Positions 107 through 9,933 of a DNA stretch of 64,000 nt are shown in pieces. The notes beneath the pieces were generated by a model that worked only from the letters and a program-made list of their open reading frames with translations, was not told where the DNA came from and searched no databases. Both the position numbers and the translations under genes were made by a program. Within the stretch, counting starts at the first letter, position 1; every line of letters begins with the position of its first letter. The DNA is from Bacteroidota bacterium (lineage in GTDB: Bacteria > Bacteroidota > Bacteroidia > Chitinophagales > Chitinophagaceae). Where the stretch lies: NCBI GenBank assembly GCA_024640255.1, contig JAHEFI010000001.1, positions 372,001 to 436,000 of the forward strand. Reading direction: 5' to 3'.

Positions 107-131
107 AGCACCCAAATGGGTGCTTTTTTTA
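107..131 (+). terminator. Rho-independent terminator
   Basis: AGCACCC-AAAT-GGGTGCT stem followed by TTTTTTT. Confidence 0.8.
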
Positions 132-189: not shown

Positions 190-228
190 TTAACACTAAG
201 TTCATCTTGGCTTAACAATTAGGTAACA
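190..228 (+). promoter_or_regulatory. Pho-box-like direct repeats upstream of the TonB receptor
   Basis: TTAACA-N5-TTCATC-N5-TTAACA-N5-GTAACA at exact 11-bp periodicity (190, 201, 212, 223); a TAATATTTG -7-like element follows at 237-245. Confidence 0.45.
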
Positions 229-265
229 TTAGAGTCTAATATTTGCATACAAATAAAAATATACC

Positions 266-3019
266 GTGAAAAGGATATCATTAGTTATACTTATTATTTT
301 CTCTACAGTTTTAGCAAATGCTCAAAGAGCAAAAGTTACAGGTAAAGTAACAAACAATAAAAACGAGGCTTTAATTGCTGTAACTGTTACTTTAAAATCA
401 GATAAAACACAAACTACAAAAACTGATGTGGAAGGTAGATATAGTTTTAGTATTGATCTAAACAAAACATATACAATTGGGTTTAACTATATTGGGTACA
501 AAGAAAAATCTATTACTGTAAATGCAATTACAACTGAGGAATTAATATCAGATGTTTTATTAGAGGAAGCGGGTAAAAAATTAACTGATGTTGTTGTGAA
601 TGCATCTAGAGGTACTAATAAAGGAGCAACTGATAATGCTTTAATTGCGTATCAAAAAAATACAAATACAGTTTCATCTGTCATATCAGCTGAATCAATT
701 AGAAGAAGCCCAGATAGAAACACTGCAGAGATTTTAAAAAGAACTCCTGGTGCGTCTATTCAAGAAGGAAAATATATTATTGTCAGAGGTTTAGCTGATA
801 GATATAACCAAGCCATGTTAAATGGTATTTTATTAACTAGTACTGAGCCTGATCGTAAAACATTTTCCTTTGATTTATTCCCTTCTCAAATTATTGATAA
901 CATTATTATCAATAAAGCCTTTGTTCCTGAATTGCCAGGAGAGTGGGCAGGTGGATTGATTCAAGTAAATACAAAAGATGTACCTACAAAAAACTTTTTT
1001 AATATTCAATTAGGTACAAGTGCAAATAGCATGGTAACTGGTAAAGATTTCTTTAAAGATAAAGGTGGAAAGACTGACTGGTATGGTATTGATGATGGTA
1101 CAAGATCTTTGCCAATGGGGTATACCACTAAGTCGAGCTTTGATACTACAAGTATTGCTGGTAAAACAGCAATGGGTAAAACCATGTCAAGTAATTGGGC
1201 TCCAATTATGACTACTGCTAAGCCTAATATGAGTGCTCAAATGAATGGAGGGTTTGCAGGTACATTATTTGGTAAAAAAATTGGAGGAATTTTAGGTATT
1301 AGTTACGCTAATTCATATAGATTCCAAGATAATATTAATAATCAAAATCAATTATCTAATTCTGGATTAACTCCTTACATTGAATTAAAGGATAATAAAT
1401 ATATAAATGATATCAACATGGGTGCTATTGCAGGAGTATCTATGTTTATTAATCCATTAAATAAAATTAGCTATAAGGCTATTGTAAATGTAAAGACAGC
1501 TAATTCTTATAATAGTAGAACAGGTACCATTTATGATAGACAAGAATTAGTAAAAGGCAATGCTTTTACTTTTGCTCAAAACGTATTTTTCACAAATCAA
1601 TTAAATGGAGAACATAGTATCACTAAAGATTTAAAATTTAATTGGTACGGCGCTTTTAATATCTTAGATAGTTATGCTCCAGATCAAAGAAAGATTGCTT
1701 ACACAAAAAGTATTACTGGAAATGATCCTTATGTATTAAATATTTCTAATACCTTATCTCAGCAATCAGGTAGCCGAGTATTCCAATCATTATCTGATTA
1801 TATCTATACAGGTGGTGGTGATTTAACATATAAAATAAATCAGCAAACTATCAAGGCTGGTTATATGATTCAAATTAAAGATCGTTTATATGACGCTCAA
1901 TTATTTGCTATTACAATGCCAATTGATAATCCAGCGTTAAGACTATTGCCTGCTGAAGCTGCTTTTGTTCCTTCAAATTTTGGTAATGGAACTGACAACA
2001 AATTTGCATTTAACTCCATTCAAAATAAAAATTTCAGATACTTAGCGAATACTATTTTAAACGCAGGATACTTACAATTTGATAATAAATTATCAAATGA
2101 CCTTAGAGTAGTTTGGGGATTAAGGGTTGAAGATTTTGACCAATTAGTAGGTTCTGTAAAGAAATGGGATCCAAGACATACTTATTCAAGAGTTACAGAC
2201 TTTTTACCAGGCGTGAATGCTTCTTTAAAGATCACACAAAAAGCTAATTTAAGATTAACAGCTTCTCAAACAGTTATTAGACCTGAATTAAGAGAGTTAT
2301 CTGCTTTAAATATTTACGATTTTGAATTAAATGCTTCTGTATCTGGTAATCCTAGTTTAAAAAGAACAAAAATTACCAACTTTGATATTCGTTACGAATT
2401 ATATCCACAAGCAGGAGAATTATTCACTGTGGGTTTATTCTATAAGAATTTTGAAAATCCTATTGAAAGCATCTATCAAGAAGCTGGTGGCGGATCTAGT
2501 TTGTTTTCGTTCCAAAATGCAGCAAAAGCTACAGCATTTGGATTCGAACTAGAAGGAAGAAAAAAGTTAAATAAGCGTTTTACTTTACAAGCGAATGGGT
2601 CTTATATTAATTCAGAAGTTAAAGATGAAAAGTTAGGTGTTTCAAGAACCTTACAAGGTCAATCTCCATATTTAATTAATGCAGGATTATTGTATGACAT
2701 AGTTGAGAAAGGATTTAATATGACTGCTTTAGTGAATCAGGTAGGAAAGCGTATTTATTTAGTGGGTGATATACAAGCAGGTGCTGGTTCCCCAGATGTA
2801 TACGAAAATCCAAGAGCATTGGTTGATTTTCAAATGAGCAAAAAATTTGCAAATAACAAAGCAGAAGTAAAATTTACAATTGCTGATATTCTAAATCAAA
2901 GACAAATATTCTATCAAAATAGTAATAGTAATTCAAATTACGATAAAACGACTGATGGCGTTCGTTTCTCAAGACAATATGGTACAACATTTGGTGTAAC
3001 AATCAATTACTCTTTATAA
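266..3019 (+). CDS. TonB-dependent outer-membrane receptor with N-terminal carboxypeptidase-regulatory-like domain
   Basis: Signal peptide; VTGKVTNNKNEALIAVTVTLKS CarboxypepD_reg-like domain; plug region (ILKRTPGASIQEGKYIIVRGLADRYNQ); beta-barrel C-terminus. Confidence 0.92.
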   Translation: MKRISLVILIIFSTVLANAQRAKVTGKVTNNKNEALIAVTVTLKSDKTQTTKTDVEGRYSFSIDLNKTYTIGFNYIGYKEKSITVNAITTEELISDVLLEEAGKKLTDVVVNASRGTNKGATDNALIAYQKNTNTVSSVISAESIRRSPDRNTAEILKRTPGASIQEGKYIIVRGLADRYNQAMLNGILLTSTEPDRKTFSFDLFPSQIIDNIIINKAFVPELPGEWAGGLIQVNTKDVPTKNFFNIQLGTSANSMVTGKDFFKDKGGKTDWYGIDDGTRSLPMGYTTKSSFDTTSIAGKTAMGKTMSSNWAPIMTTAKPNMSAQMNGGFAGTLFGKKIGGILGISYANSYRFQDNINNQNQLSNSGLTPYIELKDNKYINDINMGAIAGVSMFINPLNKISYKAIVNVKTANSYNSRTGTIYDRQELVKGNAFTFAQNVFFTNQLNGEHSITKDLKFNWYGAFNILDSYAPDQRKIAYTKSITGNDPYVLNISNTLSQQSGSRVFQSLSDYIYTGGGDLTYKINQQTIKAGYMIQIKDRLYDAQLFAITMPIDNPALRLLPAEAAFVPSNFGNGTDNKFAFNSIQNKNFRYLANTILNAGYLQFDNKLSNDLRVVWGLRVEDFDQLVGSVKKWDPRHTYSRVTDFLPGVNASLKITQKANLRLTASQTVIRPELRELSALNIYDFELNASVSGNPSLKRTKITNFDIRYELYPQAGELFTVGLFYKNFENPIESIYQEAGGGSSLFSFQNAAKATAFGFELEGRKKLNKRFTLQANGSYINSEVKDEKLGVSRTLQGQSPYLINAGLLYDIVEKGFNMTALVNQVGKRIYLVGDIQAGAGSPDVYENPRALVDFQMSKKFANNKAEVKFTIADILNQRQIFYQNSNSNSNYDKTTDGVRFSRQYGTTFGVTINYSL

Positions 3020-3054: not shown

Positions 3055-4584
3055 ATGAAACAATTATTTTATTTATCTCTTGCTTTTTTAGCCATCACAG
3101 GTTGTAGAAAGATTGAAACAGATGGCGAAAAAGAAATCTTCGTAGTAACGAAGGAAGTAGCTCCTGTAGGTGTTGTATCTAACACGATCACTTTAACTGG
3201 AAAGATTACAAAAGACACTACTTTATATGCTAAAGATGTGAATTATCTTTCTGGAATCGTTTATGTTACTAAAGGTGTTACTTTAACGGTAGAAGCGGGC
3301 GCTAAAGTACAAGGAAAATCTGGTGCTGATGTTGCTGCTTTGGTAATTTGTCGTGGTGCAAAAATTGTAGCAAAAGGTACAGCTGATGCTCCAATCGTGT
3401 TTACTTCAGCTTCTTTAAATCCTCAATCTGGTGACTGGGGAGGTATCGTATTATTAGGAACTGCTACAGTAAACCAATCATTAACATGGAAAGGTGTTGC
3501 TGTCAAAGGTTTAACATCTGTTGAAGGTGGAATTAATGATACTGAAGTAGGTTATGGTTTAGCTGGATCTGGAGATGCTACTTTTCCAACTGGAAACGAT
3601 GCAGACAATTCAGGTATTTTACAGTATGTAAGAATTGAATATGCAGGTTATGCATACCAACCAGACAATGAGTTAAATAGTTTAACAATGGCCGCAGTAG
3701 GCAGTGGCACTACAATTGACCATATTCAAGTTACATATGCAAAAGATGATGCTTACGAGTGGTTTGGTGGTACAGTAAATTGTAAGTATTTGATTGCTTA
3801 TAAGACTCAAGATGATGATTTTGATACTGACTTCGGTTATTCAGGAAAAGTACAATTTGGTATTGCTTTAAGAGATTCAGCTATTGCGGATATTTCAAAA
3901 TCTGAAGCATTCGAATCTGATAATGATGGTAATGGATCTGATTTTACACCAAAAACAACTGCTGTATTCTCTAATATGACTGTAATTGGTCCAAGAATCA
4001 ATGGAACTTACGGCAAGGGTAATACTTTGTTCTTAGCAGCTGCACAAATTAGAAGAAACTCTGGTATCTCTATTCAAAATACAGTAATTGCTGGATGGCC
4101 TTTAGGTATTTTGATTGACGAAACGAAAGTAACAACTAATGGTTCTACTTATAAGAACTTAGTGGATAGTGTTATTAGATTAAAAAATATCACTTTGGCT
4201 GGTAATACAGTTGATTTAAGATACGATGGTAAAACTGGAACAACTACTACAACTCAAAATGTATTAGATTATTTTAGCACTGCTTCTTATAATAATACTA
4301 TTTTAAGTTCTTCTTCTTCAGATATCTTAAAATTAATTCAACCGTTTAATTACACTAACCCTGACTTTACTCCATATGCAAGTGCTGGTCCAGCAACATC
4401 TGGTAATTTAAGTTCAACATATGGTACATTAGGTTTGAATACTTCTTTAGATTATAAGGCTAATGGTAGCTTTACAGATTCTAAATTACAAGATGCTTTC
4501 TTTGAGAAAGTTACATTTAGAGGTGCGGTAGCTACTTCAGGTGTAAATCAAACTTGGTGGAAAGGTTGGACAGTTTGGAAATAA
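3055..4584 (+). CDS. Secreted lipoprotein, predicted right-handed beta-helix-like, paired with the TonB receptor
   Basis: Lipobox AITGC; repetitive GVTLTVEAGAKVQGKSGA / IVFTSAS / DWGGIVLLG pattern typical of Bacteroidetes TBDR-associated lipoproteins. Confidence 0.7.
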   Translation: MKQLFYLSLAFLAITGCRKIETDGEKEIFVVTKEVAPVGVVSNTITLTGKITKDTTLYAKDVNYLSGIVYVTKGVTLTVEAGAKVQGKSGADVAALVICRGAKIVAKGTADAPIVFTSASLNPQSGDWGGIVLLGTATVNQSLTWKGVAVKGLTSVEGGINDTEVGYGLAGSGDATFPTGNDADNSGILQYVRIEYAGYAYQPDNELNSLTMAAVGSGTTIDHIQVTYAKDDAYEWFGGTVNCKYLIAYKTQDDDFDTDFGYSGKVQFGIALRDSAIADISKSEAFESDNDGNGSDFTPKTTAVFSNMTVIGPRINGTYGKGNTLFLAAAQIRRNSGISIQNTVIAGWPLGILIDETKVTTNGSTYKNLVDSVIRLKNITLAGNTVDLRYDGKTGTTTTTQNVLDYFSTASYNNTILSSSSSDILKLIQPFNYTNPDFTPYASAGPATSGNLSSTYGTLGLNTSLDYKANGSFTDSKLQDAFFEKVTFRGAVATSGVNQTWWKGWTVWK

Positions 4585-4658: not shown

Positions 4659-5009
4659 ATGAAAAAATTACATCTTGGATTATTATTTTTCGCTATTGCT
4701 GCATCAATAATCATTGTTTCTTGTTCAAAATCGAGTGATACAGCTACCACTGCAGTGAGCGCTACTTGTAATCCAAATACAAGTTTTTCACAAACAGTTT
4801 TACCTATTTTAAATTCTACTTGTAATTTGAGTGGATGCCACGATCCTAATAATGCTGCTGAATTAAATAATTATCAAGTTGTTCACGATAATGCTGCACA
4901 AATTAAGGCTTCAGTAGTGAGTGGTAGAATGCCAAAGGGTAAAACGTTTAATGCAACAGATAAAAATGCACTTCTTTGCTGGATTGATAATGGTGCAAAA
5001 AATAATTAG
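4659..5009 (+). CDS. Small lipoprotein with c-type-cytochrome-like CX4CH motif
   Basis: Lipobox IIVSC; CNLSGCH motif and downstream GRMPKG possible axial Met. Confidence 0.6.
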   Translation: MKKLHLGLLFFAIAASIIIVSCSKSSDTATTAVSATCNPNTSFSQTVLPILNSTCNLSGCHDPNNAAELNNYQVVHDNAAQIKASVVSGRMPKGKTFNATDKNALLCWIDNGAKNN

Positions 5010-5013
5010 TATT

Positions 5014-5904
5014 TTATTTAAGTTCCTCTGCTAATACTTGGTCATATAAATGGTGAATAAGTCCATCTGCTAAACCAATTTTAGGTACAAATACCTCCTC
5101 TATATTAGCCCATTTCAAAATACTGTTATATATAGTTAAGGCAGGGACTAATACTTCTGCTCTATCCTGTCTAATATTATAATGATGCATTCTTTCTTCA
5201 ACATCTAATGCCTGCATCTCTTCATATATTTCTTTTATAGTGCTGCTATTTAATGGATGACCATTTTTAGTACCACTTATAGAGAATAGCTTATTGATAT
5301 TTCCGCCAGATCCAATACCAATTAAATTATCATATTCTTTAGATAAATCCTTTAGGGTTTCTTTTAATTCATCCCAGGTGGCATCTTTCACCTTCTTTGT
5401 TAAAATTCTTACGGTGCCCACATTGAAAGACTTCTGTAATACTACTTTAGATTTATGATAAAGAGTAAGCTCTGTACTACCACCTCCTACGTCTATATAC
5501 AAGTAACTTTTTTTATCGTCAAGTAATTCTGCAAAGTGGTTTTCGTAAATAATTTCTGCTTCCAATTCTCCTGAAATTACTTCAATTTCTATAGAAGTTT
5601 CTGCTTCGATTTCTTTGATTATTTCTTTGGCATTTTCTGCATCTCTCATGGCACTTGTTGCACAGGCCATATAGTGTTCTACTTCGTATACTTTCATGAG
5701 CTGCTTGAAAGTTTTAATAGTGTCCATGAGCATTTTACGCTTTCTGCTACCAATAAAACCTTTCTCAAACACGTCAAAACCCAGCCTTAAAGGGATTCTA
5801 AGCAGGTTTAATCTATTAAAATTCACCTCTTTGCCCCTCTTTTCTACCTCGCAAACTAAAATTCTAGCTGCATTACTTCCTATATCAATTGCTGCAAGTA
5901 TCAA
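5014..5904 (-). CDS. Ppx/GppA-family exopolyphosphatase (short form)
   Basis: AAIDIGSNAARILV, CATSAMRDAENA, YIDVGGGSTELT, GIGSGGNINKL motifs. Confidence 0.9.
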   Translation of the reverse strand: MILAAIDIGSNAARILVCEVEKRGKEVNFNRLNLLRIPLRLGFDVFEKGFIGSRKRKMLMDTIKTFKQLMKVYEVEHYMACATSAMRDAENAKEIIKEIEAETSIEIEVISGELEAEIIYENHFAELLDDKKSYLYIDVGGGSTELTLYHKSKVVLQKSFNVGTVRILTKKVKDATWDELKETLKDLSKEYDNLIGIGSGGNINKLFSISGTKNGHPLNSSTIKEIYEEMQALDVEERMHHYNIRQDRAEVLVPALTIYNSILKWANIEEVFVPKIGLADGLIHHLYDQVLAEELK

Positions 5905-5909
5905 TTTGC

Positions 5910-7967
5910 TTATTTTTTCCCTTTTAGATAATTATAAGTCTGCTCTTGAGATTTATATTTAATACGGCCCGAAGTTACATATTTATTCAGTAATTCAGCA
6001 TCCAATACTCTTGCTTTCTGATTGTCTTTTAATTGAATATTGATGATATCAATTAGCTCTTTTTTGATTCTTGTATCAAATATTGGCGCAGCTACTTCAA
6101 TTCGATGATCCAAATTTCTTACCATCCAGTCTGCACTAGAAATATAGACTTTCTCTTTTCCATTATTATGAAAAATCATTACCCTGGCATGCTCTAAATA
6201 CTGGTCTACAATACTAATAGCGTTTAGTTTTTGATTTAATTTTTCTTCTTTTTTATCTAAAGTCAATATGCCTCTTATAATTAAATGAACCTCAACATTA
6301 GCCTTCACTGCCTTGTATAAATAACTAATTAAAATTGGATCTGTAAGAGAATTTAATTTGATAATTATTTTAGCTGGCTTCTTTTTATTAGCGTGTTTAA
6401 TTTCATTTTCTATTAATTGAATGATAGCCGAACGCATATTGGTTGGTGTCAATAATAAATTACTCATTTTGGTAATTGGTTTATCACCTAATTCCCAATT
6501 GGTTAAATAATCAAAGACTCTATTGGCCTCATTCATTAAAGTTTTATTGGCTGTCAATAAGCAATGATCTGCATATATTTTAGCTGTTTTTTCATTTAAG
6601 TTACCTGTGCTAATAAACCCATACTTCACTAATTTATTGCTGATGCGTTTTTGAATGACACATAGTTTAGCATGTACTTTTTTATTGGGTACACCTACTA
6701 ATACCTGGATTCCTTCTTCCTCCATGATCGATTTCCATTCTAAATTGGCTTCTTCATCAAATCTTGCTTTTAGTTCTAAAAATACAATCACCTCCTTGCC
6801 ATTTCTTGCGGCATTAATTAAGGCATTAATTACTTTAGAATTGGAAGCTAATCTATAAGCAGTTATCTTAATACTCATTACCGTATCATCCATCGCAGCC
6901 TCTCTCAACAAGTCAATTACTGGATCGTAAGAATGGTAAGGGAAATGTAGCATGATATCTTGTTTCAATACAAGATCAGATACCAAGTCTTTTTTTCTTA
7001 AAGTAGGGTGTATAAAGGGTCCTGGTCTATTGGTTTTTTCTTGAACTACTTTAGGAAAGTCCATAAAATGTCTAAAATTATGGATATGCCCACCTGGAAT
7101 GATGCTACTTTTTCTTGTAAGCTTTAATTTTTTGATTAAAAACTCCAGCATTTCTGCATTCATTTCCTTTTCATATACAAACCTTACAGGCTTGCCCTTT
7201 CTACGGTTTTTAATTCCTTTAGAGATTTTTTCAATAAAATTTATTCCTACTTCTTGGTCTAAATCAATTTCCGCATCCTTAGTTATTTTAAATATGTGAG
7301 CATCAAATTGATTGAATTTAAAATGAGAGAAAATAATGGGCAAGTTGAACTTGATCACATCTTCTAATAAAATAATATTAGTAGTTCCTGGGGCTGAGGG
7401 TAATACAATAAATCTTCCGATAGATTTTGATGGGATTTCTATCAATGAAAATTTTTGATTGTAGGCATTATTTTTATTTCCCATCACTATTGCCAAATAA
7501 AGACTCTTATCTCTTAAGTAAGGCAATTCCGGCACATTTTCGATCATTAATGGAATAATATAATGTCGAATTTCTTCATCAAAATAGTTTTTTACAAATT
7601 CCTTTTGTTTTGCATTCAATTTTTTCTCATCAATCAAGAATATTTTTTTGGACTTTAATTCCTTATTGATGTTATCCCAAATTCTATTGAATTCATTTTG
7701 TTGTCTTAATACGGTTCTTTGTATATCATCAAGTATCAATCCAGGGGAGCCGATGATTTCTATAGATTTTAATCTTTTGTCTGATAACTCAGCCATTCTT
7801 TTTAAAGTAGCTACTCTTACTCTAAAAAATTCATCTAAATTATTGGAGAAAATGCCTAAAAATCGAATTCTCTCTTGTAATGGAACAGTTGGATCATTGG
7901 CTTCTTGCAATACCCTGGCGTTAAAGCTTAGCCAGCTAATATCTCTTGGAATGAAATGGTTCTTCAT
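5910..7967 (-). CDS. ppk1: Polyphosphate kinase 1
   Basis: PPK1 family: RDISWLSFNARVLQEA, FPYHSYDPVIDLLREAA, FISTGNLNEKTAKIYADH, SSADWMVRNLDHRIEV. Confidence 0.95.
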   Translation of the reverse strand: MKNHFIPRDISWLSFNARVLQEANDPTVPLQERIRFLGIFSNNLDEFFRVRVATLKRMAELSDKRLKSIEIIGSPGLILDDIQRTVLRQQNEFNRIWDNINKELKSKKIFLIDEKKLNAKQKEFVKNYFDEEIRHYIIPLMIENVPELPYLRDKSLYLAIVMGNKNNAYNQKFSLIEIPSKSIGRFIVLPSAPGTTNIILLEDVIKFNLPIIFSHFKFNQFDAHIFKITKDAEIDLDQEVGINFIEKISKGIKNRRKGKPVRFVYEKEMNAEMLEFLIKKLKLTRKSSIIPGGHIHNFRHFMDFPKVVQEKTNRPGPFIHPTLRKKDLVSDLVLKQDIMLHFPYHSYDPVIDLLREAAMDDTVMSIKITAYRLASNSKVINALINAARNGKEVIVFLELKARFDEEANLEWKSIMEEEGIQVLVGVPNKKVHAKLCVIQKRISNKLVKYGFISTGNLNEKTAKIYADHCLLTANKTLMNEANRVFDYLTNWELGDKPITKMSNLLLTPTNMRSAIIQLIENEIKHANKKKPAKIIIKLNSLTDPILISYLYKAVKANVEVHLIIRGILTLDKKEEKLNQKLNAISIVDQYLEHARVMIFHNNGKEKVYISSADWMVRNLDHRIEVAAPIFDTRIKKELIDIINIQLKDNQKARVLDAELLNKYVTSGRIKYKSQEQTYNYLKGKK

Positions 7968-8104
7968 ATTGTATGTAAATCTCAGCGATATAATCCAAAT
8001 TAAAAAGCCTAACCGAGTATTGAATTGTTAAATTAATAATTTCTTAATAATCCGGTAATACCCTATTAATATGGATTTGCGTTTTTTACATAAAACTAAC
8101 CCCA

Positions 8105-8947
8105 ATGAACAAAAGGTCAATGGAAATATGCGTTTTGAGTGATATACACTTAGGCACTTTTGGATGTCACGCTAAAGAAGTGCTTAATTATTTAAGGAGT
8201 GTTGAACCAAAAACACTAATTCTAAATGGAGACATTATAGATATTTGGCAGTTTAGTAAGCGTTTTTTTCCTGCAAGTCATATGGCTGTAATTAAAGAGA
8301 TTTTCAATATGGCAAGTAAGGGCACTAAAGTGATATACATTACTGGAAATCATGATGAAGCTTTAAGAAAATATGCTGATTTTGAAATGGGTAATATTTT
8401 ATTGACAGATAAGATTGTTTTTGAAATTAATGGAGAGAAGAACTGGGTGTTTCATGGAGATGTATTTGATAGAACAACCAAGGGTAGTGCAAAAATTTTA
8501 GCAAAATTAGGTGGCTATGGATACGATTTATTGATTTTAATAAATAGTGTATCTAATTGGGTTAGAAAGTTAATGGGTAAAGACAAAATGAGTTTTAGTA
8601 AGAAAGTGAAGAATAGTGTTAAGAAAGCTGTTTCTTGGATTGGTAATTTTGAACAAACTGCTGCAGAATTAGCTATTGAAAACAACTATCAATATGTGAT
8701 CTGTGGTCATATTCATCAACCACAACAAAGATTAGTAACTACTGAAAAAGGTTCAGTAACTTATTTAAATAGTGGAGATTGGATTGAAAATTTAACATCA
8801 TTAGAATATTACGATAAGGCTTGGCAATTATATCATTATGATCCAAAGCAATTTGAACATGTTTCTTCAGAGAAGATAAAAGTGGTTCATTTGAGCAATG
8901 AGTTAAATGTATTAACTGATGCTGTTGCTTTTCAAGTTTCATTTTAA
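8105..8947 (+). CDS. UDP-2,3-diacylglucosamine diphosphatase (LpxH)-like metallophosphoesterase
   Basis: LSDIHLGTFG, NGDIIDIW, TGNHDE, GHIHQPQ metallophosphoesterase motifs. Confidence 0.85.
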   Translation: MNKRSMEICVLSDIHLGTFGCHAKEVLNYLRSVEPKTLILNGDIIDIWQFSKRFFPASHMAVIKEIFNMASKGTKVIYITGNHDEALRKYADFEMGNILLTDKIVFEINGEKNWVFHGDVFDRTTKGSAKILAKLGGYGYDLLILINSVSNWVRKLMGKDKMSFSKKVKNSVKKAVSWIGNFEQTAAELAIENNYQYVICGHIHQPQQRLVTTEKGSVTYLNSGDWIENLTSLEYYDKAWQLYHYDPKQFEHVSSEKIKVVHLSNELNVLTDAVAFQVSF

Positions 8948-9933
8948 TGAAAATTTTATACGCCATACAAGGCACTGGTAACGGGCATTTAAGCAGGGCT
9001 ATACAGCTTCATCCTTATTTAAAAAAATATGGTGAAGTAGATTATTTCTTGAGCGGTTCTAATGCTCAATTAAATACGAGTTTGCCAATTAAATATAGAA
9101 GTAAAGGCGTGAGTTTATTTTATAAAAACACAGGAGGTTTGGATTATTTTAAAATGCTTCAATCTTTTTCTTTTAACATTTTTAAAGAAGCAAAAAAATT
9201 ACCTGTTGAAGAATATGATATGGTGATCAACGATTTTGAATTTGTTACTTCATTGGCTTGTAGGTTAAAAAAAGTTAAATCAATTCACTTTGGACATCAA
9301 GCAAGTTTTCAAAGCAAGAAAACGCCAAGATCAAAAACTTTTAATCCTATTGGAAATTTAATCCTCAATAGCTTTGTTACAGCAGACAAATACCTTGGCT
9401 TGCATTTCGAAAAGTTTGATGAAAATGTTTACAATCCTGTAATTAAAGATGAAATTATCAATGCAGTGCCTATTAATGATGGGCATATTACTGTTTATTT
9501 ACCACAGTATTCAATAGAATTCCTAGAGCCTTACTTCTTAGCTTTTCCAAATTTTCATTTTGAAATTTTTACCAAAGAAGTTGGCCAAATTACTTGTAAG
9601 AAAAATATCTGCTATTTCCCTATCAATAATAATGCCTTTACACAAAGTATGATTAGGTGTTATGGTATAATTACTGCTGGAGGCTTTGAAACCCCTGCAG
9701 AAGCTATGTATTTGAATAAAAAAGTAATGAGTATTCCTATATTAAACCACTTTGAACAAGAATCCAATTCGGTAGCTTTAAAAAATATGGGGGTAAAGGT
9801 TTTAGAAAAAATAGATGAAAAATTTAATCAACATTTCCAACATTGGGTGAATGAAATGAATCCTATAAAATTAGACTTGCAATATTCTACAGAAGAGCTA
9901 GTAGACATATTATTTAAAAAAGCTTTAAACTAA
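8947..9933 (+). CDS. Glycosyltransferase family protein (GT-B/MurG-like)
   Basis: MKILYAIQGTGNGHLSRA N-terminal motif; GGFETPAEAMYLNKKVMSIPILNHFEQ C-terminal nucleotide-sugar motif; TAATG overlap with the upstream gene. Confidence 0.75.
   Translation: MKILYAIQGTGNGHLSRAIQLHPYLKKYGEVDYFLSGSNAQLNTSLPIKYRSKGVSLFYKNTGGLDYFKMLQSFSFNIFKEAKKLPVEEYDMVINDFEFVTSLACRLKKVKSIHFGHQASFQSKKTPRSKTFNPIGNLILNSFVTADKYLGLHFEKFDENVYNPVIKDEIINAVPINDGHITVYLPQYSIEFLEPYFLAFPNFHFEIFTKEVGQITCKKNICYFPINNNAFTQSMIRCYGIITAGGFETPAEAMYLNKKVMSIPILNHFEQESNSVALKNMGVKVLEKIDEKFNQHFQHWVNEMNPIKLDLQYSTEELVDILFKKALN

Follow-up and report, generated by a model that had tools for sequence, protein, structure and literature searches.

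A conserved array of 11-bp repeats at a TonB-receptor promoter as a very likely Pho box of Bacteroidota

Introduction

What is the function of a short run of TTAACA-like hexamers that recurs every 11 bp upstream of a TonB-dependent receptor gene and, should it be an operator, which regulator would read it and to what effect? The question is raised by the left end of a 64,000-nucleotide stretch of DNA (hereafter the window, by which the whole stretch is meant), where a preliminary description had proposed a Pho-box-like element and a PhoB-type regulator acting on the receptor and the lipoprotein encoded behind it. In Bacillus subtilis, the PhoP box is built from TTAACA-type hexamers with spacers of about 5 bp.

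The receptor-promoter array: units, position and rarity

Direct reading of the sequence bore out the architecture given in the preliminary description, namely four hexamers with a period of exactly 11 bp and, downstream of them, a -7-like element. All units lie on the forward strand: TTAACA at 190..195 (TTAATA in most relatives), TTCATC at 201..206, TTAACA at 212..217 ([GT]TAACA in relatives) and the promoter-proximal GTAACA at 223..228, whose start stands 19 bp before the TTTG (242-245) of the -7 element TAATATTTG (237..245, forward strand). The sigma-A consensus of Bacteroidota is TAnnTTTG (PMC9723704). The array as a whole is confined between an intrinsic-terminator-like hairpin with a T run (GCACCCAAATGGGTGC, 107..129, forward strand, read directly), which marks the end of the upstream gene, and the GTG start of the receptor at 266. 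Its half-sites follow the consensus [GT]TAA[CT]A with a 5-bp spacer, arranged head-to-tail every 11 bp.

Such an arrangement is rare. The pair KTAACA-N16-KTAACA was found once against 0.10 expected per 64 kb, and KTAACA at units 1, 3 and 4 jointly was never recovered in 400 dinucleotide shuffles of the window (0/400). When the window was scanned at periods 7-15 with a wider unit (KTAAYA, four units, up to 2 mismatches), period 11 yielded two arrays only (190-228 and 8033-8071), and periods 7-10 and 12-15 together yielded one (at period 15). Within the genome to which the window belongs (2.19 Mb in 48 contigs, 86.6% complete), two consecutive exact KTAACA units occur in the receptor array and in one further match on contig C6, and nowhere else; the latter lies inside an unrelated ORF and was rejected as an operator, being attributable to chance. 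Further KTAACA-N16-KTAACA matches are found on contigs C10 and C43. A strict search of the same genome for three KTAACA units returned no match because unit 2 of the receptor array is a variant (TTCATC has three mismatches to the KTAACA consensus) and the units before the plcP-like gene described below are of the KTAATA type.

Conservation in Sediminibacterium

The lipoprotein of Sediminibacterium sp. C3 (a named genome) is 93% identical to that of G017, a genome of the same genus as the window, and judging by this one protein we take the genus to be Sediminibacterium (Chitinophagaceae). The receptor/lipoprotein pair is present in relatives, and the array is kept at all 18 Sediminibacterium loci whose promoter could be read, with 3-6 units spaced by exactly 11 bp; in every one of the 18, the start of the proximal unit lies exactly 19 bp from TTTG or TTTA. 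Loss of the repeats in close relatives, which the preliminary description had named as a finding that would speak against it, was thus not encountered at any of these loci. Among the 13 closest loci, mean column conservation reaches 0.87 over the 44-bp array, as compared to 0.51 just upstream, and unit 2 reads TTCA[CT] in 13/13, and is therefore a kept variant rather than a product of decay. At one related locus (G011) the array is absent and the gene order is different. Across 101 genomes of the genus, most of the exact three-unit arrays precede this receptor and some precede other TonB receptors. In one member (G076) the gene behind the array encodes a phosphate-selective porin (PF07396), and a PhoU_div/DUF47 gene lies in divergent orientation.

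The receptor, its lipoprotein partner and their neighbours

The receptor (266..3019, forward strand, GTG start) carries CarbopepD_reg_2, Plug and OMP_b-brl_3 domains, together with a sub-threshold match to TIGR01782, and adjoins a lipoprotein gene (3055..4584, forward strand), the architecture of the pair seen in relatives, where this lipoprotein is the receptor's partner. The lipoprotein is predicted to fold as a right-handed beta-helix (model pLDDT 78.5, pTM 0.84). Beta-helix proteins or enzymes predominate among its 50 best PDB matches, none of them at E <= 0.001 and all with low TM-scores, and a search of its sequence against solved structures gave no match; the predicted fold would agree with that of FII lipoproteins, for which a pectin-lyase fold is listed. 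Further downstream, two genes lie on the reverse strand, encoding an exopolyphosphatase-like Ppx/GppA protein (5014..5904) and polyphosphate kinase 1 (5910..7967). Between the predicted beta-helix lipoprotein and ppx we observed a further, small lipoprotein (window 4659-5009) that bears the CxxxCH-like motif CNLSGCH and was detected in some relatives only.

A second array before a plcP-like gene

The second array, overlooked in the preliminary description, lies divergent from the polyphosphate kinase gene and consists of TTAATA (8033), TTAATA (8044), GTAATA (8055) and TTAATA (8066) on the forward strand (8033..8071), and its last unit again begins 19 bp before a TTTA (8085-8088). It precedes a putative PlcP-like metallophosphoesterase (8105..8947, forward strand), which may act in phospholipid recycling, directly followed by a glycosyltransferase with a likely role in glycolipid synthesis (8947..9933, forward strand). 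The phosphoesterase belongs to an LpxH-like family, and another LpxH-like gene is present elsewhere in the same genome. A related array precedes the plcP-like gene across most of the genus and in nearly all the relatives compared, often at the same 19-bp distance. PlcP/glycosyltransferase lipid-remodelling pairs respond to phosphorus deficiency (PMC4796936), and plcP of Flavobacterium johnsoniae is induced at low phosphate (PMC8115612); the two genes of the window fit such a pair and are probably to be read as one.

Arrays at pst operons and across the phylum

PhoU was searched for in G000 and 19 other genomes of the genus and was found in none of them (0/20), and pst loci were therefore sampled from the order and the phylum. 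Scanning the non-coding DNA of each locus for its best-matching run of three [GT]TAA[CT]A units (up to 2 mismatches), we found period-11 arrays upstream of the pst operon at 18 of 39 loci from the order and 18 of 40 from the phylum, as against 0-2 loci at each of the control periods (8-10 and 12-14). The enrichment at known Pho genes that would be expected of the Pho-box reading is therefore present, and about half of the sampled pst loci have no array within 2 mismatches. The distance from a pst array to the ORF that follows, in most cases PstS or an outer-membrane porin, has a median of 88 bp, and of 26 TTTG occurrences 16 stand in the phase of the receptor promoter (19 modulo 11). Two of the operons are complete (gene names from translations): porin-PstS-PstC-PstA-PstB-PhoU (L137) and PstS-PstC-PstA-PstB-PhoU (L138). 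A pst promoter from the same family (L147) reads TTAACA-TTCATC-TTAACA, with the very unit-2 variant of the window.

In a set of 80 named lipoprotein loci spread over many genera of Bacteroidota, period 11 gave 30 three-unit arrays (up to 1 mismatch) and each of the periods 7-10 and 12-15 gave none; over 60 distinct arrays, TTTG stands at exactly +19 in 30. One family of the order (f13, loci L115-L120) has 11-bp TTAACA arrays in which TTTG stands at +31, and these precede genes for secreted proteins (T9SS-tail, PDZ, VWA). We set them aside as not Pho-like; either a different regulator reads them as a similar operator, or the same regulator is put to a divergent use. Given such arrays, the motif alone is no proof, and weight falls on the 19-bp phase and on the genes around it. 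We also observed an array of four units in the 19-bp phase in a MAG of Melioribacter roseus (L215; Ignavibacteria, outside the Bacteroidota core), where it precedes a 932-aa TonB receptor at a locus that contains pst genes.

The candidate regulator

Three OmpR-type regulators are encoded in the own genome of the window (on contigs C41, C7 and C6). The C41 regulator is followed by a PhoR-like kinase (the pair lies at 4357-6125 of L059) and has PhoB as its best model, at 212.8 bits, below the curated cut-off of 296.2; the C6 regulator falls into a different named subfamily, RprY. Among the 80 named loci, the neighbours of the receptor include phoB (12), phoR (14), DUF47 (14), plcP (6) and ppk (5), several loci have pst genes beside the receptor, and three control genes are found at none (0/80). 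Identity to the receptor-linked PhoBs is 51-67% for the C41 regulator and mostly 28-37% for the other two, of which the RprY-like one is 46.5% identical to a separate regulator in L225. By sequence identity, the C41 regulator is the orthologue of the PhoB encoded beside the receptor/lipoprotein genes in other genera, so that the PhoB-type regulator proposed in the preliminary description gains support and is narrowed to the C41 PhoB/PhoR pair. A full array is absent from the promoter of phoB; conserved there is a weaker site of two units (TTAACAATTT...TAAT, upstream of 4357 in L059 and before linked phoB loci), which suggests weak autoregulation.

Which regulator, and in which direction

The best-placed competitor holds that a different OmpR-family regulator (that of C7 or C6) uses the array as its operator and that the signal is not phosphate. 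Tandem 10-11-bp repeats are common targets of this family, three of whose members are encoded in the genome; the PhoP motif of Riemerella anatipestifer resembles that of Escherichia coli ArcA (PMC9603813); and the arrays of L115-L120 precede non-Pho genes. We nevertheless consider this explanation improbable, since arrays of this kind mark pst promoters across the phylum and the C41 regulator alone is orthologous to the receptor-linked PhoB, that of C6 being of the RprY subfamily. Still less probable is that PhoB binds mainly to repress or tune the promoter: some Pho boxes of other bacteria do repress, but the proximal unit at -33 with its fixed 19-bp spacing has the geometry of an activator site, and the counterparts in F. 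johnsoniae rise strongly at low phosphate (PMC8115612). A chance or low-complexity coincidence, for which one could cite the TTAA-like words favoured in AT-rich intergenic DNA, is already refuted by the dinucleotide shuffles, the period-specific enrichment and the retention at all 18 Sediminibacterium loci, and deserves practically no weight.

Taken together, these observations make it highly likely that the array is a multi-unit Pho box through which phosphorylated PhoB activates the receptor/lipoprotein operon at low phosphate. The features of a Pho box found here are 11-bp direct repeats, an activator position, the same motif at pst promoters (in relatives) and an encoded PhoB/PhoR pair (its PhoB below the cut-off). 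The corresponding reading of the preliminary description gains support from the arrays at pst promoters, the 18/18 retention and the linkage to phoBR, and the TTAACA repeats, which are genuine and conserved, very probably serve PhoB as docking sites. When phosphate is scarce, PhoR would phosphorylate PhoB, whose subunits (by analogy with E. coli PhoB) would line up along a single helical face, one on each of the four half-sites; the proximal PhoB, at the -33 position 19 bp before TTTG, would contact or recruit sigma-A RNA polymerase, and the receptor/lipoprotein operon would be switched on for phosphorus scavenging. The second array would likewise switch on the plcP-like gene and the glycosyltransferase, leading to lipid remodelling.

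Phosphate sensing in a genus with no PhoU match

Phosphate sensing in this genus departs from the usual scheme, as phoBR-like genes are present in G000 in spite of there being no match to PhoU, which places it outside the standard Pst/PhoU model. No array lies within 300 bases upstream of an orphan PstS-like gene (on C43), and Sediminibacterium probably lacks Pst. As a wider proposal, to which we give somewhat less than even credence, a single Pho operator grammar would hold across the Bacteroidota, the phosphate threshold of a gene would depend on how many 11-bp units precede it and on their quality (the count being about 2 for phoB, 4 for plcP and for the receptor, and as high as 6 in some species), and in Sediminibacterium PhoR, sensing phosphate by a Pst-independent route, would govern a regulon that has shrunk to little beyond the receptor and lipid-remodelling promoters (the scarcity of array-bearing promoters being a count within the incomplete own assembly, 86.6%).

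Significance and comparison with known systems

The array supplies a searchable Pho-box pattern for Bacteroidota, [GT]TAA[CT]A every 11 bp with the last unit 19 bp before TTTG, by which phosphate regulons may be predicted across a phylum that is important in water, soil and gut; many of these would include TonB receptors and lipoproteins of unknown function. Moreover, it brings to light a genus with phoBR-like genes and no detectable PhoU. In the literature searched, the Riemerella motif was the one Pho box for Bacteroidota to come up, and no paper gave such a box with a repeat period and promoter spacing. In Bacteroides fragilis, PhoB binds the pstC promoter, with no box given in the part of the report drawn on here (PMC3547664).

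The nearest relative of the array within the phylum is the site bound by R. anatipestifer PhoP, a regulator that is upregulated in phosphate starvation and binds the promoter of a TonB-dependent receptor as well as its own, with TTTAACA as the most conserved bases of the bound sites (DAP-seq and EMSA; PMC9603813). The likeness to the window lies in this TTTAACA core and in the TonB-receptor target; in the sections of the report used here, however, no multi-unit 11-bp array or distance to a -7 element is described, and the authors liken the motif to that of ArcA (PMC9603813). As regards the receptor and its partner, the PUSIII and PUSIV systems of F. johnsoniae comprise a low-phosphate-induced TBDT with FI/FII lipoproteins, PUSIV being next to phoBR (PMC8115612), and Caulobacter ElpS (ElpS/cc0171) is a lipoprotein beside a TonB receptor that is made under phosphate starvation (PMC2996285). 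Compared by description, both systems share with the window a TonB receptor and a lipoprotein, that of the window being a predicted beta-helix, the two being adjacent and phosphate-starvation induced in PUSIII/PUSIV, and the lipoprotein alone being starvation-induced in Caulobacter.

Outside the phylum, the Pho box of E. coli PhoB consists of two 11-nt direct repeats with a CTGTCAT core, bound head-to-tail, and the PhoP box of B. subtilis likewise has a direct-repeat form (PMC4415409). With the former, the array has in common tandem 11-bp direct repeats that lie upstream of the -10 and replace the -35, but it differs in its core, in its typical 4 (and up to 6) units and in the Bacteroidota -7 box. 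With the latter it shares nearly the same hexamer and period, although the phyla are unrelated and the first base is here G as often as T.
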